From: an uncultured Bacteroidales bacterium
GTDB lineage: Bacteria; Bacteroidota; Bacteroidia; Bacteroidales; JACABE01
Direction of reading: 5' to 3'
NCBI GenBank assembly: GCA_903899825.1
Contig: CAIUKU010000358.1
Location: 1 to 32,302, forward strand
Length of the DNA: 32,302 bases
Notes under the pieces: generated by a model
The model's input: only the letters and a program-made list of their open reading frames with translations
What the model was told of the DNA's origin: nothing
Database searches by the model: none
Shown here: in pieces, positions 7,888 through 31,837 of the stretch
Position numbering within the stretch: position 1 is the first letter of the stretch
How the letters are laid out: each line of letters starts with the position of its first letter
Position numbers and translations under genes: made by a program

Positions 7888-7898
7888 AATTATAATTT

Positions 7899-8083
7899 AT
7901 TCAAAGATTCAAAGAAAAGGATTCAAAGATTTAAAGAAAACATTCAAAATTCAAAGAAAGTATTCAAAGATTCAAGGAAAAGAATTCAAAGATTCAAGGA
8001 AAGTATTCAAAGAATTTTGAATCTCTTCTTATTGAATTTTTGAATTTTTGATTTTTTGAATTTTTGAATTTTTAAATCTTTCA
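7899..8083. repeat. Cassette-1 hairpin tract T1 (7/21-bp units)
   Basis: The left arm on the plus strand is built from ATTCAAA-GATTCAA-GGAAAGT-type units (21 bp = 3x7). From about 8017 it switches to the complementary style (TTTTGAATC..., TTTTTGAA...), so the tract can fold back on itself. It fills the spacer between the fcl start and the stop of S23 gene 1; the S23 stop codon is its last triplet. Related tracts follow at 8498-8856 and 9199-9438. Confidence 0.9.
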
Positions 8084-8470
8084 ATCGTTATATTTTTCAC
8101 CTTTAAAACCTGAGTTTTTCAGATATTTAATTAATTGAAATAGCTCACGGGATATCTCTTCAGTCATAATAATCAGTTTATCAAACTCTGACTGGCTAAT
8201 GTATTTAAAATCAAAAGCACGCCAGCTTTGTGATCGGGTTTCTCCACATGATCCCTTTGCAATATAGAGAAACTGGCAGAATTCTTTATTGCCTCCTCTT
8301 TCGAAACCTTCCCCGATATTATCCATAATTGAACCCGATGAACTTCTTATCTGATCCCTGAATCGAAAATCCTTATTAAAATCACGTTCCTGAGTTAGTT
8401 GAAACACAAATAAAGATAATGATCTTGCTTTTTGCCATACCGGTAAATCTTCAAACTTTTTAACTGACAT
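8081..8470 (-). CDS. S23-type four-helix-bundle protein 1
   Basis: This 129-residue protein belongs to the 23S rRNA intervening-sequence (S23/IVP) four-helix-bundle family. Diagnostic stretches are FEDLPVWQKAR at the N-terminus, FRDQIRSSSGSIMDNIGEGFERG in the centre, and FCQFLYIAKGSCGETRSQ. The family's function is unknown; the fold resembles Avd of diversity-generating retroelements, which binds nucleic acid (family knowledge). It has no evident role in sugar metabolism, and sits between fcl and the mutarotase gene, bracketed by TTCAAAG-type tracts on both sides. It differs clearly in sequence from the other three S23 genes here, so they are not recent duplicates of one another. Confidence 0.9.
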   Translation of the reverse strand: MSVKKFEDLPVWQKARSLSLFVFQLTQERDFNKDFRFRDQIRSSSGSIMDNIGEGFERGGNKEFCQFLYIAKGSCGETRSQSWRAFDFKYISQSEFDKLIIMTEEISRELFQLIKYLKNSGFKGEKYND

Positions 8471-8497
8471 AGAAAATAATTAAATTGGTCAAAAATT

Positions 8498-8856
8498 TAT
8501 TCAAAGAAAAAGATTCAAATATTCAAGGAAGAAATTCAAATAAAGATATTCAAAGATGTAAGAAAATATTCAAAGATTCAAGGAAAGTATTCAAAGATTT
8601 AAAGGAAACATTCAAAGATTCAAGGAAAGTATTCAAAGATTCAAGGAAAACATTCAAAATTCAAAGAAAGTATTCAAAGATTCAAGGAAAGTATTCAAAG
8701 ATTCAAGGAAAACATTCAAAATTCAAGGAAAGTATTCAAAGATTTTTGAATCTTTTCATTTGAATTTTTAAATCATTAAATCATTGAATTATTGAATTTT
8801 TTGAATCCTTGAATCACTTCTTTTTGAATCCTTGAATTATTAAATCTTTTGAATTT
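8498..8856. repeat. Cassette-1 hairpin tract T2 (7/21-bp units)
   Basis: About 240 bp of plus-strand ATTCAAAGATTCAAGG-AAAGT/AAAAC units with a dominant 21-bp period and occasional 20-bp units, followed from ~8743 by the opposite polarity (TTTTTGAATC, CCTTGAATTATTGAA). It starts 28 bp upstream of the S23 gene 1 ATG and ends at the stop of the mutarotase gene. Apparent plus-strand ORFs here are products of the repeat. Confidence 0.9.
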
Positions 8857-9179: not shown

Positions 9180-9198
9180 GAGAAAATATATTTAAAAG

Positions 9199-9438
9199 TC
9201 AAGGAAAAGAATTCAAAGATTCAAGGAAAAGAATTCAAAGATTTAAAGGAAACATTCAAAATTCAAAGAAAGTATTCAAAGATTTAAAGAAAAGAATTCA
9301 AAGATTTAAAGGAAACATTTAAAGATTCAAGGAAAACATTCAAAGATTCAAAGAACGTATTCAAGGATTTTTGAATCTCTTCTTTTTGAATCCTTGAATT
9401 ATTAAATCCTTGAATTTTTGATTTTTTGAATCTTCAAT
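9199..9438. repeat. Cassette-1 hairpin tract T3 (7/21-bp units)
   Basis: Same unit family as T1 and T2 (GGAAAAGAATTCAAAGATTC and variants), switching to the opposite polarity at ~9368 (TTTTTGAATCTC, TCCTTGAATTATT). It lies between the mutarotase ATG and the stop of the kinase fusion, beginning within 5 bp of that stop in the direction of transcription. Unlike T1 and T2 it does not touch an S23 gene, so the repeat family has spread to a neighbouring gap. Confidence 0.9.
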
Positions 9439-9442
9439 TCCT

Positions 9443-10682: not shown

Positions 10683-11057
10683 TTAAAATGCCCAGTTTTC
10701 GGGTTTGGTACTCATATTAACTAACATTGCAATAATATGATCGTATTTGTCATTCAGAATTAAATGTGTTTCGTTATTGATATAGCCGGCTTTTAATGCA
10801 TAATCCAGCCAAACTTGAGTTTCTGCGGCTTCACCTTCTGAAATTGATAATTTTGAAATAAACGATTTAGGATAACGTCTTACTCTATATGCTTCTGCAA
10901 TATTTCCGGAAACGGAACGGGAAGATCTTCGGATTTGATCGGTAAGTGAATAAACTTCTTCTTTTGGAAAAGATTTGCTTAAAAAATAAATCTCCATCCC
11001 AGCCTCAAACGACAACTTAAATACATTCAATTCCCTATGAGTTTTTATTTTATCCAT
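10683..11057 (-). CDS. S23-type four-helix-bundle protein 2
   Basis: This 124-residue S23/IVP-family protein carries THRELNVFKLSFEAGMEIY at the N-terminus, LTDQIRRSSRSVSGNIAEAYR centrally, and KLSISEGEAAETQVWLDYA. The spacing of these blocks is the same as in the other S23 genes of the window, but the sequence belongs to a different subfamily (AEAYRVRRYP instead of AEGAARN). It lies between gmd and the kinase fusion and is enclosed by inverted octamer tracts rich in TTCGC. The gene is intact. Function unknown; a nucleic-acid-binding role for the repeat transcript or DNA is a hypothesis. Confidence 0.9.
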   Translation of the reverse strand: MDKIKTHRELNVFKLSFEAGMEIYFLSKSFPKEEVYSLTDQIRRSSRSVSGNIAEAYRVRRYPKSFISKLSISEGEAAETQVWLDYALKAGYINNETHLILNDKYDHIIAMLVNMSTKPENWAF

Positions 11058-11139
11058 TAAATAAATTTATTATTTATTCACTTCACTCTATTTTCTTAAT
11101 CCACTCATCCAAACATTTACTTATATTTCGTATGCCATT

Positions 11140-11495
11140 TCACTTCGTCTGCTCCTTCGCTCGCCCCTTCGCTTTGTTCTCTTTGTTCGCTCAGTTCGCA
11201 CTTTCGCTCCATCACCCTTTCCCTCAGTCTCTTAGTCTCCTCTTCGCTTCGTTCGCCCCATCGCCTCATCGCTCCCTCGCCCCTTCGCTAAGTTCGCACT
11301 TTCGCATTTCCCCTCAGTCCCTCAGTCTCCTTTTGTCCTCTTCGCTTCGTTCGCCTCTTCGATCAGTTCGCTTCGTTCGCCCCATCGCCTCATCGCTCCC
11401 TCGCCCGTTCGCTCAGTTCGCCCTTTCGCATTTCCACTCAGTCTCTCAGTCCTTTACTAACTTTTGCTAAGTTCGCCTTTTCGCTTCGTTCGCCT
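11140..11495. repeat. Cassette-2 right tract (octamers NNNNTCGC)
   Basis: Plus-strand pyrimidine-rich units of mostly 8 bp ending in TCGC (TCGTTCGC, CCCATCGC, CTCATCGC, TCCCTCGC, ACTTTCGC) with some 9-bp units and CAGTCTC-type units. A block of roughly 120-130 bp is present twice (from ~11244 and from ~11340), indicating a larger duplication. The tract overlaps the gmd stop codon (CTA on the plus strand at 11494-11496). A 112-codon plus-strand frame here is a repeat artefact. The 436-bp gap 11058-11493 holds nothing else. Confidence 0.9.
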
Positions 11496-20513: not shown

Positions 20514-20525
20514 ATAGTGTGAATT

Positions 20526-20602
20526 GTGATGAGTGATGCGTGATGCGTGATGTGTGATGCGTGATCTGTGATGTGTGATCTGTGATGTATGAGCTGTGAA
20601 TT
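20526..20602. repeat. Cassette-3 left heptad tract (GTGATNN x11)
   Basis: Eleven consecutive 7-bp units in unbroken phase: GTGATGA, GTGATGC, GTGATGC, GTGATGT, GTGATGC, GTGATCT and so on to GTGAATT. It fills the gap between the capG start and the stop of the S23 gene; that stop codon overlaps the last unit. The same unit appears inverted at 21134-21294. Confidence 0.95.
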
Positions 20603-20959
20603 ATATTCGGTTTGAAAGTGATTTTTTTAAACCTATCAGCATTTTTCTAATATCTACGAGCATAATTTCAAGCTCATTGAAGCTTACTTCATTTATATAT
20701 TTTAAAATTTTCGAAATTATCAGTTGTGTTTCCAGTTCAGAAATGGAACCCAATGAAATTGAAAGAAAATAACTAAATTCTTTTAGCGTTTTTCTGGCTG
20801 CACCTTCAGCAATATTGGAAGGAACAGAAACGGCTGAACGACGAATCTGACTGATAATACCATAGGTTTCATTTTTCGGGAAATCAGCGGTTCTTTGTAA
20901 ATCAATGTAACAAAATCTATAGCCTTTTTCCAGACATCTAAATCGTGATGAGTTTTCAT
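20601..20959 (-). pseudogene. S23-type four-helix-bundle gene 3, frameshifted
   Basis: Read as one gene it would encode about 119 residues starting MKTHHDLDVWKKAIDFVTLIYK, then shifting frame into ADFPKNETYGIISQIRRSAVSVPSNIAEGAAR and ELETQLIISKILKYI. The joined product aligns end to end with S23 gene 4 (MRTHKDLDVWK..., FPKNEIFGIVAQMRRAAVSIPSNIAEGAAR). The break lies near 20895, where AAAGAACCGCTG lacks one base relative to the frame needed for YKETADFPKNE. The longer open frames that read upstream through the heptad tract are artefacts. A single-base deletion means a pseudogene, a sequencing error, or less likely programmed frameshifting. It sits between capF and capG. Confidence 0.85.
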
Positions 20960-20972
20960 AAGGATGTTTTTT

Positions 20973-21294
20973 GTGAGCTGTGAAGTGTGATGCGTGATGC
21001 GTGAACTGTAATCTGTAATCTGTGAAGTGTGAACTGTAATCTGTGAACTGTAATCTGTAATCTGTAATCTGTGATGTGTGATCTGTAATCTGTGATGTGT
21101 GAACTGTAATCTGTGATCTGTAATCTGTGTCAACATCACTCATCACGCATCACTCATCACGCATCACGCTTCACTCATCACTCATAACGCCTCACTCATA
21201 ACGCATCACGCCTCACGCCTCACTCATCACACCTCATACCTCACACATCACTCATCACACATCACTCATTACACCTCACTCATCTCGCATTAAC
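20973..21294. repeat. Cassette-3 right heptad tract with polarity switch
   Basis: Twenty-two 7-bp units of GTGANNN/GTAATCT type (20973-21126), one transition unit GTGTCAA, then twenty-three units of CATCACN/CCTCACN type (21134-21294). Phase is kept at exactly 7 bp across the tract with substitutions only. The second half is the reverse complement in style of the first half and of 20526-20602, so it can fold on itself or pair across the S23 gene. It occupies the 347-bp gap upstream of the frameshifted S23 gene, ending 12 bp from the capF stop; GTGATGAGT-type sequence continues into that stop. Confidence 0.95.
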
Positions 21295-21306: not shown

Positions 21307-22440
21307 TCACACCGTTTCGAAATATGTATCGGGGTCATTGGTATCAAAATGTTCGTTGATCCAGAAAAGGGTATAAAGTTCTTCTTCTCCAGCATTTTTA
21401 ATATTATGTGTATACCATACCGGCATGTCTACAAAGGAAGGATTTTCTCCATCCAGCTCGAAAGATAAGATTTCTTCGCTGCCAATTCTTCTCAATTCAA
21501 TCAATGCTTTTCCTTTGATAACTGCAAATCGTTCGGCCTTGCGGGTATGGAAATGGTTTCCGCGTGTAATTCCTGCAACAGTTGTCGAAAATGAAACCTG
21601 TCCTCCACTGTTTAATTTTACAATTTCAACAAAACTACCTCTGTTATCTGTATTTTTTTTCAATAGGAAAGGGAAAAATTTACGATGGTCGATGTAGCAA
21701 AGGAAGGTGATAAATAAATTTCTGTCAAAAGAACTGATTAATGAAGGGATTTCTCCTTTTTCAAAATAATTGGTTTTGAAGGTTGAAAGTTTTGAAAGCA
21801 ATTCAGATACCTTAATCGTTGAAGTGTGGGGTATCGTAATTGGTGATTGGTAATCAGTAATTGGTGATTGGTGATCAGTAATTTGCATGAGAATAATTTC
21901 TACCAATTCACCGACGTATATCAGTTTCATTTCACCATCTACGTCAATACGAGGGGTTTCGTTATGGGTAAGCTGATGACAGAATGTGGCTACTACTGAA
22001 TTATAGTAGGGATTCCCGAAAGGGCCGAATACATTGGGAATTACTAAACCTGTGAATCTTGCATGGTTTCTTGCAGCCCATTCTTCCAGCAAAGCCCTGC
22101 CTTCTTTTTTTGATTTTCCATATAAATTATCTCTTTCTTCCTGAGTGGATGAAGAAAATAAAATATGAGGCTTAGCCGCTGTTGTTTCGCAGGCAGCTAT
22201 CAGCTGTTTTACCAGACCAATGTTGGTATTGTATATTACTTCTGCATCGTTGTGACGGTTCATGGCTGCAAGGTGTACAATAACATCGCACTCCTTAACA
22301 AATTCGTTTAAAGTGTTTGTATTCTGGAAAAATTCATCTTTAAATGGGATACGAATAAATTTTTCGGGATAGAGCCCCAGGGTATTAAAAAGATGGGTTC
22401 CAACAAATCCGGCTTGTCCTGTTATTCCGATTTTTAGCAT
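21307..22440 (-). CDS. capF: Bifunctional reductase CapF/FnlB
   Basis: This 377-residue two-domain enzyme is the second step of UDP-L-FucNAc synthesis. The N-terminal SDR domain (residues 1-~250; GITGQAGFVGTHLF, VHLAAMNRH, SSSTQEERDNLYGKSKKEGR with Tyr/Lys) reduces the 4-keto group. The C-terminal cupin domain (from ~270; NRGSFVEIVKLNSGGQVSF, TRGNHFHTRKAERFAVIKG with metal-binding His, and the end WINEHFDTNDPDTYFE) epimerises the hexulose. Within the SDR domain, around residues 187-203, lies a low-complexity peptide ITDHQSPITDYQSPIT encoded by heptad DNA repeats (21835-21883), which looks like an in-frame insertion. Neighbours capE and capG complete the pathway. Confidence 0.94.
   Translation of the reverse strand: MLKIGITGQAGFVGTHLFNTLGLYPEKFIRIPFKDEFFQNTNTLNEFVKECDVIVHLAAMNRHNDAEVIYNTNIGLVKQLIAACETTAAKPHILFSSSTQEERDNLYGKSKKEGRALLEEWAARNHARFTGLVIPNVFGPFGNPYYNSVVATFCHQLTHNETPRIDVDGEMKLIYVGELVEIILMQITDHQSPITDYQSPITIPHTSTIKVSELLSKLSTFKTNYFEKGEIPSLISSFDRNLFITFLCYIDHRKFFPFLLKKNTDNRGSFVEIVKLNSGGQVSFSTTVAGITRGNHFHTRKAERFAVIKGKALIELRRIGSEEILSFELDGENPSFVDMPVWYTHNIKNAGEEELYTLFWINEHFDTNDPDTYFETV
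21835..21883. repeat. Heptad repeat array inside the capF coding sequence
   Basis: Seven 7-bp units in phase: CGTAATT, GGTGATT, GGTAATC, AGTAATT, GGTGATT, GGTGATC, AGTAATT. They are of the same family as the cassette-4 flanks (GGTAATT, AGTGATT). Read on the minus strand they encode a 7-residue protein repeat (ITDHQSP/ITDYQSP). Six units are 42 bp, a multiple of three, so insertion of six units would keep the frame. Confidence 0.93.
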
Positions 22441-22447
22441 AGTTTTT

Positions 22448-22496
22448 GGTAATTGGTAATTGGTAATTAGTAATTAGTGATTGGTTATTTGTGAAT
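22448..22496. repeat. Cassette-4 left heptad tract (GGTAATT)
   Basis: Seven 7-bp units: GGTAATT three times, AGTAATT, AGTGATT, GGTTATT, TGTGAAT. It starts 7 bp upstream of the capF ATG and ends 10 bp from the stop of S23 gene 4. Its reverse complement matches the right flank at 22871-22898, with one whole heptad extra on this side. Confidence 0.93.
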
Positions 22497-22505
22497 AGTT
22501 TTTTT

Positions 22506-22862
22506 TTATTTATTAGTCACTGACTTTATAAGTCCCTGAATCATTTTAGAAATTACATCTAATTTTTCAATTAATTCATCTGATTTATTTCGTTGAATAT
22601 AATCTAAATTTTGGGAAACTATAATTTGAGTATTTAACTCAGCTGCACTTCCTAATGCAATATATAAAAATTGTTTAAATTCATTTTGATGATTTCTTGC
22701 AGCTCCTTCTGCAATGTTAGATGGAATTGATACGGCAGCTCTTCTCATTTGTGCGACAATGCCGAAGATCTCATTTTTAGGGAAAAAAGCTGTTGTTTTG
22801 TAAATTTCCACAACAAACGATACACTTAATTTCCAAACATCTAAATCTTTGTGTGTCCTCAT
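22506..22862 (-). CDS. S23-type four-helix-bundle protein 4
   Basis: This intact 118-residue S23/IVP-family protein reads MRTHKDLDVWKLSVSFVVEIYK, FPKNEIFGIVAQMRRAAVSIPSNIAEGAARN, FLYIALGSAAELNTQIIVSQ and a C-terminal helix ending KSVTNK. This is the most common form of the family as I know it (DLDVWK; SIPSNIAEG). It is the closest relative of the frameshifted gene 3, yet the tracts flanking the two have different unit sequences. It separates capE from capF and is enclosed by inverted GGTAATT-type heptads. Role unknown. Confidence 0.92.
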   Translation of the reverse strand: MRTHKDLDVWKLSVSFVVEIYKTTAFFPKNEIFGIVAQMRRAAVSIPSNIAEGAARNHQNEFKQFLYIALGSAAELNTQIIVSQNLDYIQRNKSDELIEKLDVISKMIQGLIKSVTNK

Positions 22863-22870
22863 CTTTCACT

Positions 22871-22898
22871 AATTACTATTCACCAATCACTAATCACC
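22871..22898. repeat. Cassette-4 right heptad tract
   Basis: Four units on the plus strand, AATTACT, ATTCACC, AATCACT, AATCACC: the reverse complement of GGTGATT, AGTGATT, GGTGAAT, AGTAATT. It overlaps the last codons and TGA stop of capE (stop at 22894-22896) and ends 8 bp before the S23 gene 4 ATG. Confidence 0.92.
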
Positions 22899-23913
22899 AA
22901 TTTAAATCTTCTCTGATCATCTCCAGCTTCATCAAAAGCGCTTTCATCCCTTCCACATCCAGTCTTTCGGTATTGTGAGAATGATAATCTTCTACAGCAG
23001 AAACTTCTTCTTCGCCCTCGATAAAGAATTTATCATAATTCAAATCTCTTGAATCGCAGGGAATGCGGAAATATTTCCCCATGTCTTCACTTTTAGCCAT
23101 TTCTTCACGGGTCACCAGGGTTTCATATAGTTTTTCACCATGACGGGTTCCAATGACGCCCACAGTGGTTTTAGATTTATACAAAGAAATCAATGCCTTT
23201 GCCAGGGTATCCAATGTGGCTGCAGGAGCTTTTTGTACAAACAAATCCCCGTTATTACCATGTTTCCAGGCATAAATCACTAAATCTACCGCATCTTCCA
23301 GTGTCATCATAAACCTTGTCATATTGGGATCGGTTACCGTAAGGTTTTTGCCTGCTTTCAACTGTTCTGCAAACAAAGGAATCACAGAACCCCTGGAAGC
23401 CATCACATTGCCATAGCGCGTGCAACAAATGGTCGTAACAGCTTTACTTCCCAACGCACGCCCTTTGGCTATCGCCACTTTTTCCATCATGGCTTTGCTG
23501 ATACCCATGGCATTGATAGGATAACAGGCTTTATCGGTACTTAAAACCACCACTTTCTTTACACCATGTGCAATGGCTGCATCCAAAACATTTTCGGTAC
23601 CCAATACATTGGTTCTTACAGCCTGAATGGGAAAGAATTCACAGGAGGGAACCTGTTTTAAGGCTGCTGCATGAAAAACATAATCAACTCCGGCCATGGC
23701 AGCTTCCACACTTCGCTGATCACGCACATCACCAATATAAAATTTCAGTTTTGGATGTTGTAACTTATGACGCATATCGTCCTGCTTTTTTTCATCCCTC
23801 GAAAAAATACGAATTTCCTGAAACTCATCTGTATGGAGAAAACGCTGTAATACAGCATTCCCAAAAGAACCGGTGCCTCCGGTGATTAATAAAATCTTAT
23901 CTTTAAGCATCAT
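22894..23913 (-). CDS. capE: UDP-GlcNAc 4,6-dehydratase (inverting), CapE/FnlA
   Basis: This 339-residue extended SDR catalyses the first step from UDP-GlcNAc to the L-configured 4-keto-6-deoxy sugar used for UDP-L-FucNAc. Motifs are LLITGGTGSFGNAVL at residues ~8-22, IFSRDEKKQDDMR, the FHAAALKQVPSCE loop, VVVLSTDKACYPINAMGISKAMMEK, and RYGNVMASRGSVIPLF. The usual catalytic Tyr of YxxxK is replaced by Met (MGISK), a feature known for CapE-type enzymes. Met-Met at the start leaves two equivalent ATGs; the first is used. The last codons and TGA stop merge into the heptad repeat flanking S23 gene 4. Confidence 0.95.
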   Translation of the reverse strand: MMLKDKILLITGGTGSFGNAVLQRFLHTDEFQEIRIFSRDEKKQDDMRHKLQHPKLKFYIGDVRDQRSVEAAMAGVDYVFHAAALKQVPSCEFFPIQAVRTNVLGTENVLDAAIAHGVKKVVVLSTDKACYPINAMGISKAMMEKVAIAKGRALGSKAVTTICCTRYGNVMASRGSVIPLFAEQLKAGKNLTVTDPNMTRFMMTLEDAVDLVIYAWKHGNNGDLFVQKAPAATLDTLAKALISLYKSKTTVGVIGTRHGEKLYETLVTREEMAKSEDMGKYFRIPCDSRDLNYDKFFIEGEEEVSAVEDYHSHNTERLDVEGMKALLMKLEMIREDLNW

Positions 23914-31688: not shown

Positions 31689-31837
31689 GGCTGTCTCAAA
31701 ATACAATTAACACTTAAATTAAGACTCTGAGATTCTCTGTGTATTCTCTGTGATTCTCTGTGTAATAATATTTTACAAATCACACAGAGTGACACAGAGC
31801 TTTTCACAGAGTTCCACAGAGAACTTTTGAGACAGCC
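31689..31837. mobile_element. MITE-like palindromic element (GGCTGTCTCAAAA ends)
   Basis: The termini GGCTGTCTCAAAA (31689-31701) and TTTTGAGACAGCC (31825-31837) are perfect 13-bp inverted repeats. The 149-bp element is almost fully palindromic, with repeated CTCTGTG on the left and CACAGAG on the right and a loop near TAATAATATTTTACAA. There is no ORF and no clear target duplication. Ends of this type resemble IS termini, so it is probably a non-autonomous element. Confidence 0.6.

Follow-up and report, generated by a model that had tools for sequence, protein, structure and literature searches.

The STRR of Calothrix is one of the heptameric simple sequence repeats known from bacteria. Further heptamer repeats have been described as GGGAATC in Xanthomonas and GGGGAYT in Nostoc (PMC4692102) and as TAACTGA in Beggiatoaceae and some Bacteroidetes (PMC4679880), and the passages of PMC4692102 on Xanthomonas give 70–75 convergent (inverted) pairs of GGGAATC. 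The passages of these two papers that deal with the repeats make no mention of an IVP/S23 gene, and no paper joining the two subjects was found in the open literature, subscription journals being outside the scope of the search. A 23S rRNA intervening sequence with an S23p open reading frame is known from Leptospira and Coxiella burnetii; it measures 428–444 nt in Coxiella, and its mobility has long been suspected (PMC4990558). S23p is a pentamer of four-helix bundles (PMC4990558), and the family PF05635 is homologous to Avd (PMC10053308). The link between tandem arrays and IVP/S23 genes that is reported here, with the arrays as element ends, is new.

The DNA analysed, called the window throughout, is a 32,302-nt stretch from an uncultured Bacteroidales bacterium (contig CAIUKU010000358.1). 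Fourteen IVP genes were found in this genome, four of them within the polysaccharide cluster of the window (Table 1, cassettes 1 to 4), and most of the 14 are flanked on either side by short tandem arrays whose unit is specific to the locus. Like the 23S rRNA intervening sequence, the cassettes hold an S23p/IVP gene inside complementary inverted ends, and their size is similar, at 414–416 bp on the Trichormus and Scytonema plasmids described below. Unlike it, they lie between the protein genes of operons and in rRNA at none of 80 GTDB loci with IVP relatives; an Rfam search of the window and these 80 loci recovered no rRNA or other known RNA at the gene. Their ends are tandem arrays of 7–9 nt units, in contrast to the 28-bp stem described for Coxiella (PMC4990558), they occur in many copies per genome, and empty sites and duplicated target bases were found for them. 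The cassettes are best read as free-standing relatives of the 23S rRNA intervening sequence with short tandem array ends. The arrays also resemble the heptameric repeats as these are described in the passages cited above, in unit length, intergenic placement and variable copy number; they consist of tandem 7-nt units that change by whole units, as expected of a heptameric simple sequence repeat.

Table 1. Cassettes and heptad arrays in the window (positions on the forward strand)
Feature	Position	Strand	Unit or evidence
Cassette 1	7898..8829	-	IVP gene 8081-8470, flanked on each side by phase-broken ~8 nt arrays (ATTCAAAG/TTTGAAT)
Cassette 2	10683..11470	-	IVP gene 10683-11057; irregular upstream CGCTCAGTTCG-type arrays
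Cassette 3, downstream arm	20517..20600	-	12 heptads; plus strand GYGTGAT/CTGTGAT; gene's strand C-rich ATCACNN
Cassette 3, 23S_rRNA_IVP/S23 (TIGR02436) gene	20601..20959	-	Frameshifted near 20892; Pfam PF05635; tblastn frame change
Cassette 3, inner upstream array	20971..21131	-	22 heptads and a transition unit; plus strand CTGTRAW; gene's strand C-rich
Cassette 3, outer upstream arm	21132..21292	-	23 heptads of reversed polarity; gene's strand G-rich TGATGMG
Heptads within capF	21836..21883	+	Seven, in frame (GTRATYR); missing from the G001 ortholog and seven other CapF
Cassette 4, downstream array	22446..22499	-	Plus-strand unit TTGGTAA; gene's strand C-rich
Cassette 4, 23S_rRNA_IVP/S23 gene	22506..22862	-	Intact, between capE and capF; PF05635 E=9.5e-40, TIGR02436
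Cassette 4, upstream array	22865..22901	-	Gene's strand G-rich; inverted relative to 22446-22499

The three intact window genes scored 135.5, 111.1 and 105.3 bits against PF05635 (cut-off 33.8), with 130.5 bits for TIGR02436 (cut-off 24), and the frameshifted gene of cassette 3 reached 103.3 bits. Residues 1–22 and 24–118 of the latter fall in different frames (tblastn), which marks either a pseudogene or an assembly error; the frameshift and the array lengths of cassette 3 rest on a draft assembly of 526 contigs. The capF-capG gap measures 17–35 bp in several relatives and holds an IVP cassette with GTGAYNN arrays in the window and in two further loci (L181, L184). The cap operon of the window has been invaded by two cassettes. 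The heptads within capF encode the peptide ITDHQSPITDYQSP, in a loop, and represent array growth inside a coding gene. Open frames that run through arrays (20601-21146, 20783-21139 and 11132-11470) are mechanical, with repeats of the ITDYRLQ and RSLAPSL types, and array-derived stretches elsewhere could likewise carry protein annotation.

Arrays without an IVP gene of their own stand at two other places in the window. At 9190-9440, beside a mutarotase-like gene, two arrays of opposite polarity (ATTCAAAG-type followed by TTGAATT) have the look of cassette 1's ends copied without the gene. At 31725-31764 a short array with a 10–11 nt unit (CTCTGTGATT) resembles others in the genome (L047 at 12661, L062 at 2032).

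The heptad phase of cassette 3 far exceeds chance. Self-identity at a lag of 7 was 0.79, 0.77 and 0.75 in its three arrays and equally high at multiples of 7, and TRF returned period 7 with 0% indels at 20517-20592, 20972-21129 and 21134-21284. The strict 7-bp phase of the original prediction is thus borne out inside each array; it does not continue from the left to the right arrays, which stand 6 (mod 7) out of register on the two sides of the S23 gene (TGTGA at 20518 and at 20972). The composition given for the right flank, of 22 units, a transition unit and 23 units, was recovered, as was the single switch of polarity, at ~21125-21133; the left flank has 12 units rather than the 11 counted before, the outermost being degenerate. 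Unit positions 1, 2, 5 and 7 vary and G3-T4-A6 is nearly fixed. The middle array, of 23 units in all, uses just 9 words, and at least 10 substitutions are needed for its 27 deviations. Unit order was a weak sign of block duplication, seen at lag 2 in the left array only (p = 0.007); a pooled count of unit types was left out because registers are mixed. The outer upstream arm is complementary to both the inner array and the downstream arm, and the upstream pair is predicted to fold as RNA at -126 kcal/mol (z -7.9). Strict phase is not general within the window, since cassettes 1 (7898-8829) and 2 (11132-11470) have many phase breaks, which we take qualitatively because extension of the realignment into flanks inflates indel counts at the edges.

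The association of arrays with IVP genes extends across phyla. The 80 GTDB loci represent many phyla and were picked by similarity to the window protein, so that they may favour its branch of the IVP family; arrays were scored for units of 5–12 nt. Within 300 bp of an IVP gene, 43 arrays were counted (0.91/kb), none lay between 300 and 600 bp, and 23 were spread over the remaining 341 kb (0.07/kb), a thirteen-fold enrichment next to the gene. Many IVP loci are without detectable arrays. A sample of 540 kb from the window's genome contained 48 arrays, 15 of them no more than 400 bp from an IVP gene. Of the other 33, ten have a unit that also occurs in one of this genome's IVP cassettes, where 3.5 were expected and 200 shuffles gave at most 8. 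Units beside IVP genes are mostly 7 nt long (85 arrays), with 30 arrays of 8 nt and 13 of 9 nt.

The two flanks of the gene are inverted copies of each other. Inverted flanks beat all 40 dinucleotide shuffles in 90 of 129 elements, compared with 27 for direct repeats, and were found in 40 of 65 named loci, whereas control intervals taken from the same DNA gave 5 of 195. Arm units include AGTGACA/CTTGTCA, TCGTATG/ACGACAT and AACGTGACG/CACGTTCGT, and GGGAGTA/TACTCCC in Nostoc. The nearest upstream array has more G than C in 51 of 53 cases and the nearest downstream array more C than G in 55 of 65; since one arm is the inverse of the other, the two counts express a single rule, a G-rich 5' arm on each strand. 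Compound cassettes also occur: read on the gene's strand, cassette 3 is G-array, C-array, gene, C-array, and another locus (L164) is G, C, gene, G, C. The flanks of one IVP gene in a KSB1 MAG (L148) are strongly direct rather than inverted repeats (score 48 vs 10 in shuffles).

These blocks are gained and lost whole at exact sites, and their edges are the arrays. The Trichormus and Scytonema conjugative plasmids hold a block of ~414–416 bp composed of arrays, IVP gene and arrays, which is missing from the Aulosira, Nostoc linckia and Tolypothrix plasmids, whose backbones are ~97% identical; TAAT (or GTAAT) stands on both sides of the filled site and once in the empty one. Two adjacent gene junctions of a single Nostoc operon form a reciprocal pair of filled and empty sites (L252, L253, L255, L258, L259), and one insertion has TTCTA on both sides. 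At the junction that follows a TraM-domain gene, Nostoc C052 and N. edaphicum carry the insertion and C057, at 95% identity, does not; in strain ATCC 53789 this junction is occupied by a pair of arrays without a gene. Calothrix PCC 7716 and NIES-4105 provide another comparison of this kind. Backbone identity between filled and empty plasmid sites ranges over ~88–97%. Target duplication is readable at two sites only, where it is short and AT-rich (TAAT/GTAAT; TTCTA), and none is clean at a third. Similar elements were also found with unrelated flanks (L003/L070, L009/L075, L071/L074, L168/L175). The sequence comparisons place the insertions at gene junctions in operons.

From these comparisons, cassette 3 is probably a broken-gene copy of a small mobile element in which a G-rich array, the IVP/S23 gene and a C-rich inverted array follow each other, so that the arrays seen as insertion edges would be the element's ends, terminal inverted repeats of 7–9 nt units. 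Points against this reading are the extra inner array of cassette 3, which a simple two-arm model does not predict, the frameshifted gene of that cassette, the many IVP loci without detectable arrays, the scant target duplication, the lack of a known transposase motif, and units that track the protein only among close relatives. In common with insertion sequences and MITEs, the cassettes show inverted repeats at their termini, empty sites with clean edges, short duplicated bases at two sites, and derivatives without the gene; unlike these, they have no recognisable transposase, and their inverted repeats are tandem arrays whose unit differs between elements. On a Picosynechococcus PCC 7003 plasmid (L254, 1492-1848), a type III-B CRISPR operon has an IVP gene inserted between cas10/cmr2 and cmr3. 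"23S rRNA IVP" appears among CRISPR-linked proteins (PMC10910872), and insertions of this kind could explain that listing.

The IVP protein is maintained by purifying selection, as the low ratios between close pairs indicate (pN/pS ~0.12–0.38; dN/dS ~0.07–0.23), even for copies at different places. Residues Q38, S45, N49, E52 and E75 are near-invariant, at 96–98%. No known transposase or nuclease motif was recognised in the protein, scans with Pfam, NCBIfam and PADLOC named no enzyme domain between the arms, where only the IVP gene lies, and the window IVP had no match in the phage collection. Structure 2GSC shows five four-helix bundles joined in a pentameric ring, and the protein shares homology and the four-helix-bundle fold with Avd/bAvd of diversity-generating retroelements. 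Matches of the window protein to Avd profiles are weak (PF22296, E=5.6e-7; NF033474, E=4.3e-5 and 23.8 bits with a cut-off of 80) and both fall below the cut-offs, whereas it passes those of PF05635 and TIGR02436. Neither a TR/VR pair nor a reverse transcriptase was seen next to those cassettes that were examined, and no reverse transcriptase was recognised in the part of the window's ORFs that was scanned. In the mechanism that we propose, the two arms would pair, either by forming a hairpin when the DNA is single-stranded or in the RNA, as a stem like that of the 23S rRNA intervening sequence, which RNase III cuts, and the pentameric IVP protein would bind the arms and help the movement or maintenance of the element.

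The second form of pairing could by itself be what matters: RNase III would excise the stem of paired arms from the operon transcript, and it would be this function of the RNA, not mobility of the DNA, that keeps the arms and their phase matched. The anatomy is that of the Coxiella intervening sequence, in which the S23p gene lies within complementary ends cut by RNase III (PMC4990558), a strong stem is predicted, and the insertions stand between operon genes, where a processed stem would harm little. Against this, LSU rRNA was detectable near the gene at 0 of the 80 IVP loci, and some cassettes are antisense to the host operon (L172, L173). We regard an RNA role as a real but minority possibility; it is compatible with a mobile element and does not exclude one.

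A similar standing is given to mobilisation in trans, which we hold to be plausible though on the lesser side of even: the cassettes would be non-autonomous and moved by a Y1 (REP-type) transposase or a reverse transcriptase, with IVP as accessory or passenger. Y1_Tnp and RVT_1 genes are present in all four genomes of the genus, but because such enzymes are common their presence does not discriminate, and no array was tied to a gene for either. Avd, the homolog of IVP, is the partner of a reverse transcriptase (PMC10053308). Array-hairpin-array elements without IVP are abundant on cyanobacterial plasmids, where those akin to the Aulosira ones occupy 89 places in 42 plasmid records. On the Aulosira plasmid itself (L175, 1188-5300) there are several, with TCAGAAT-type heptads as in a nearby IVP element.

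Arrays change length by whole units. Orthologous insertions differ by exactly 14 bp, or two heptads, between L169 and L174 (~97% identical), and by exactly 7 bp, or one heptad, between L251 and L256 (88%); by eye, the other aligned orthologous arrays (L252/L258/L255, L008/L072, L135/L122) showed substitutions only and no indel smaller than a unit, whereas the spacer beside aligned arrays has indels of 2–13 bp. The array lengths of L014/L083 were excluded, as one array runs off the contig end. A comparison of strains, to see if only whole heptads change, had been proposed as a check, and its outcome here is in keeping with whole-unit change. The special unit-wise synthesis proposed along with it is dispensable, since slippage or unequal exchange gives whole-unit change, and the strict heptad phase would have arisen in this way. 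In a slippage-mutation simulation at this divergence with 5–10% indels per substitution, phase was kept in ~10–75% of single arrays (small samples), and less often jointly across arrays; without unit turnover it was kept in 8–24% of cases for one array and in <4% for three. At these rates slippage explains the phase tolerably, and a modest extra constraint is possible, perhaps through selection for two arms that can pair.

A constraint of another kind, in which the spacing would be selected to suit a fixed 7-nt footprint of the IVP/S23 pentamer or some other array-binding protein, appears improbable. It would fit the strict phase across 12–23 units, the ring of five four-helix bundles (2GSC; PMC4990558) of this Avd relative (PMC10053308), and the sharing of unit length with the nearest protein neighbour (0.69 vs 0.51 expected, p = 0.0035). 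However, units of 8 and 9 nt take the same position and role in the same family, and arrays of these lengths can match heptads in strict phase (L135/L122, L106), while phase breaks are frequent, including in cassettes 1 and 2 of the window. The unit is common to 85% of IVP pairs with at least 65% identity and to 18% at 55–65%; closely related proteins can have different units, and with all pairs included a Mantel test showed no significant relation between protein and unit (p = 0.12). A fixed footprint is therefore unsupported, although the S23 protein suspected in the original prediction was the right one in that the arrays do belong to the S23 gene.

Least probable of all, and very unlikely in our view, is that the heptads are ordinary simple sequence repeats born of slippage whose position close to the S23 gene is a matter of chance or of the long intergenic space there: the published heptamer excess of bacterial genomes, as given in PMC4679880 and in PMC4692102 citing Mrazek 2007, the small unit dictionary with whole-unit length changes, and the 33 of 48 arrays away from IVP genes would all suit it, but slippage accounts for phase and not for placement, which is enriched thirteen-fold within 300 bp of the gene and nil at 300–600 bp, with inverted arms of fixed polarity, exact insertion edges at empty sites, and units shared by distant arrays and IVP cassettes well above expectation.

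Returning to the mobile element, we tentatively suggest, at rather less than an even chance, that IVP/S23 proteins are the mobility factors of widespread, so far unrecognised minimal transposable elements of one gene (~120 codons) with renewable tandem-array ends, in which the unit is free to change as long as both arms have the same unit and the 5' arm is G-rich. Many of the heptamer repeats in bacteria, and the intervening sequences of 23S rRNA, would then have one of their origins in this class. The plasmid pairs named above already provide filled and empty sites for further work. Should the cassettes prove mobile, heptad arrays would mark the ends of elements, and two old puzzles would be joined, namely the over-representation of heptamers in bacteria and the purpose of S23/IVP proteins and rRNA intervening sequences; the family mis-named "ribosomal protein S23" would then gain a testable role.
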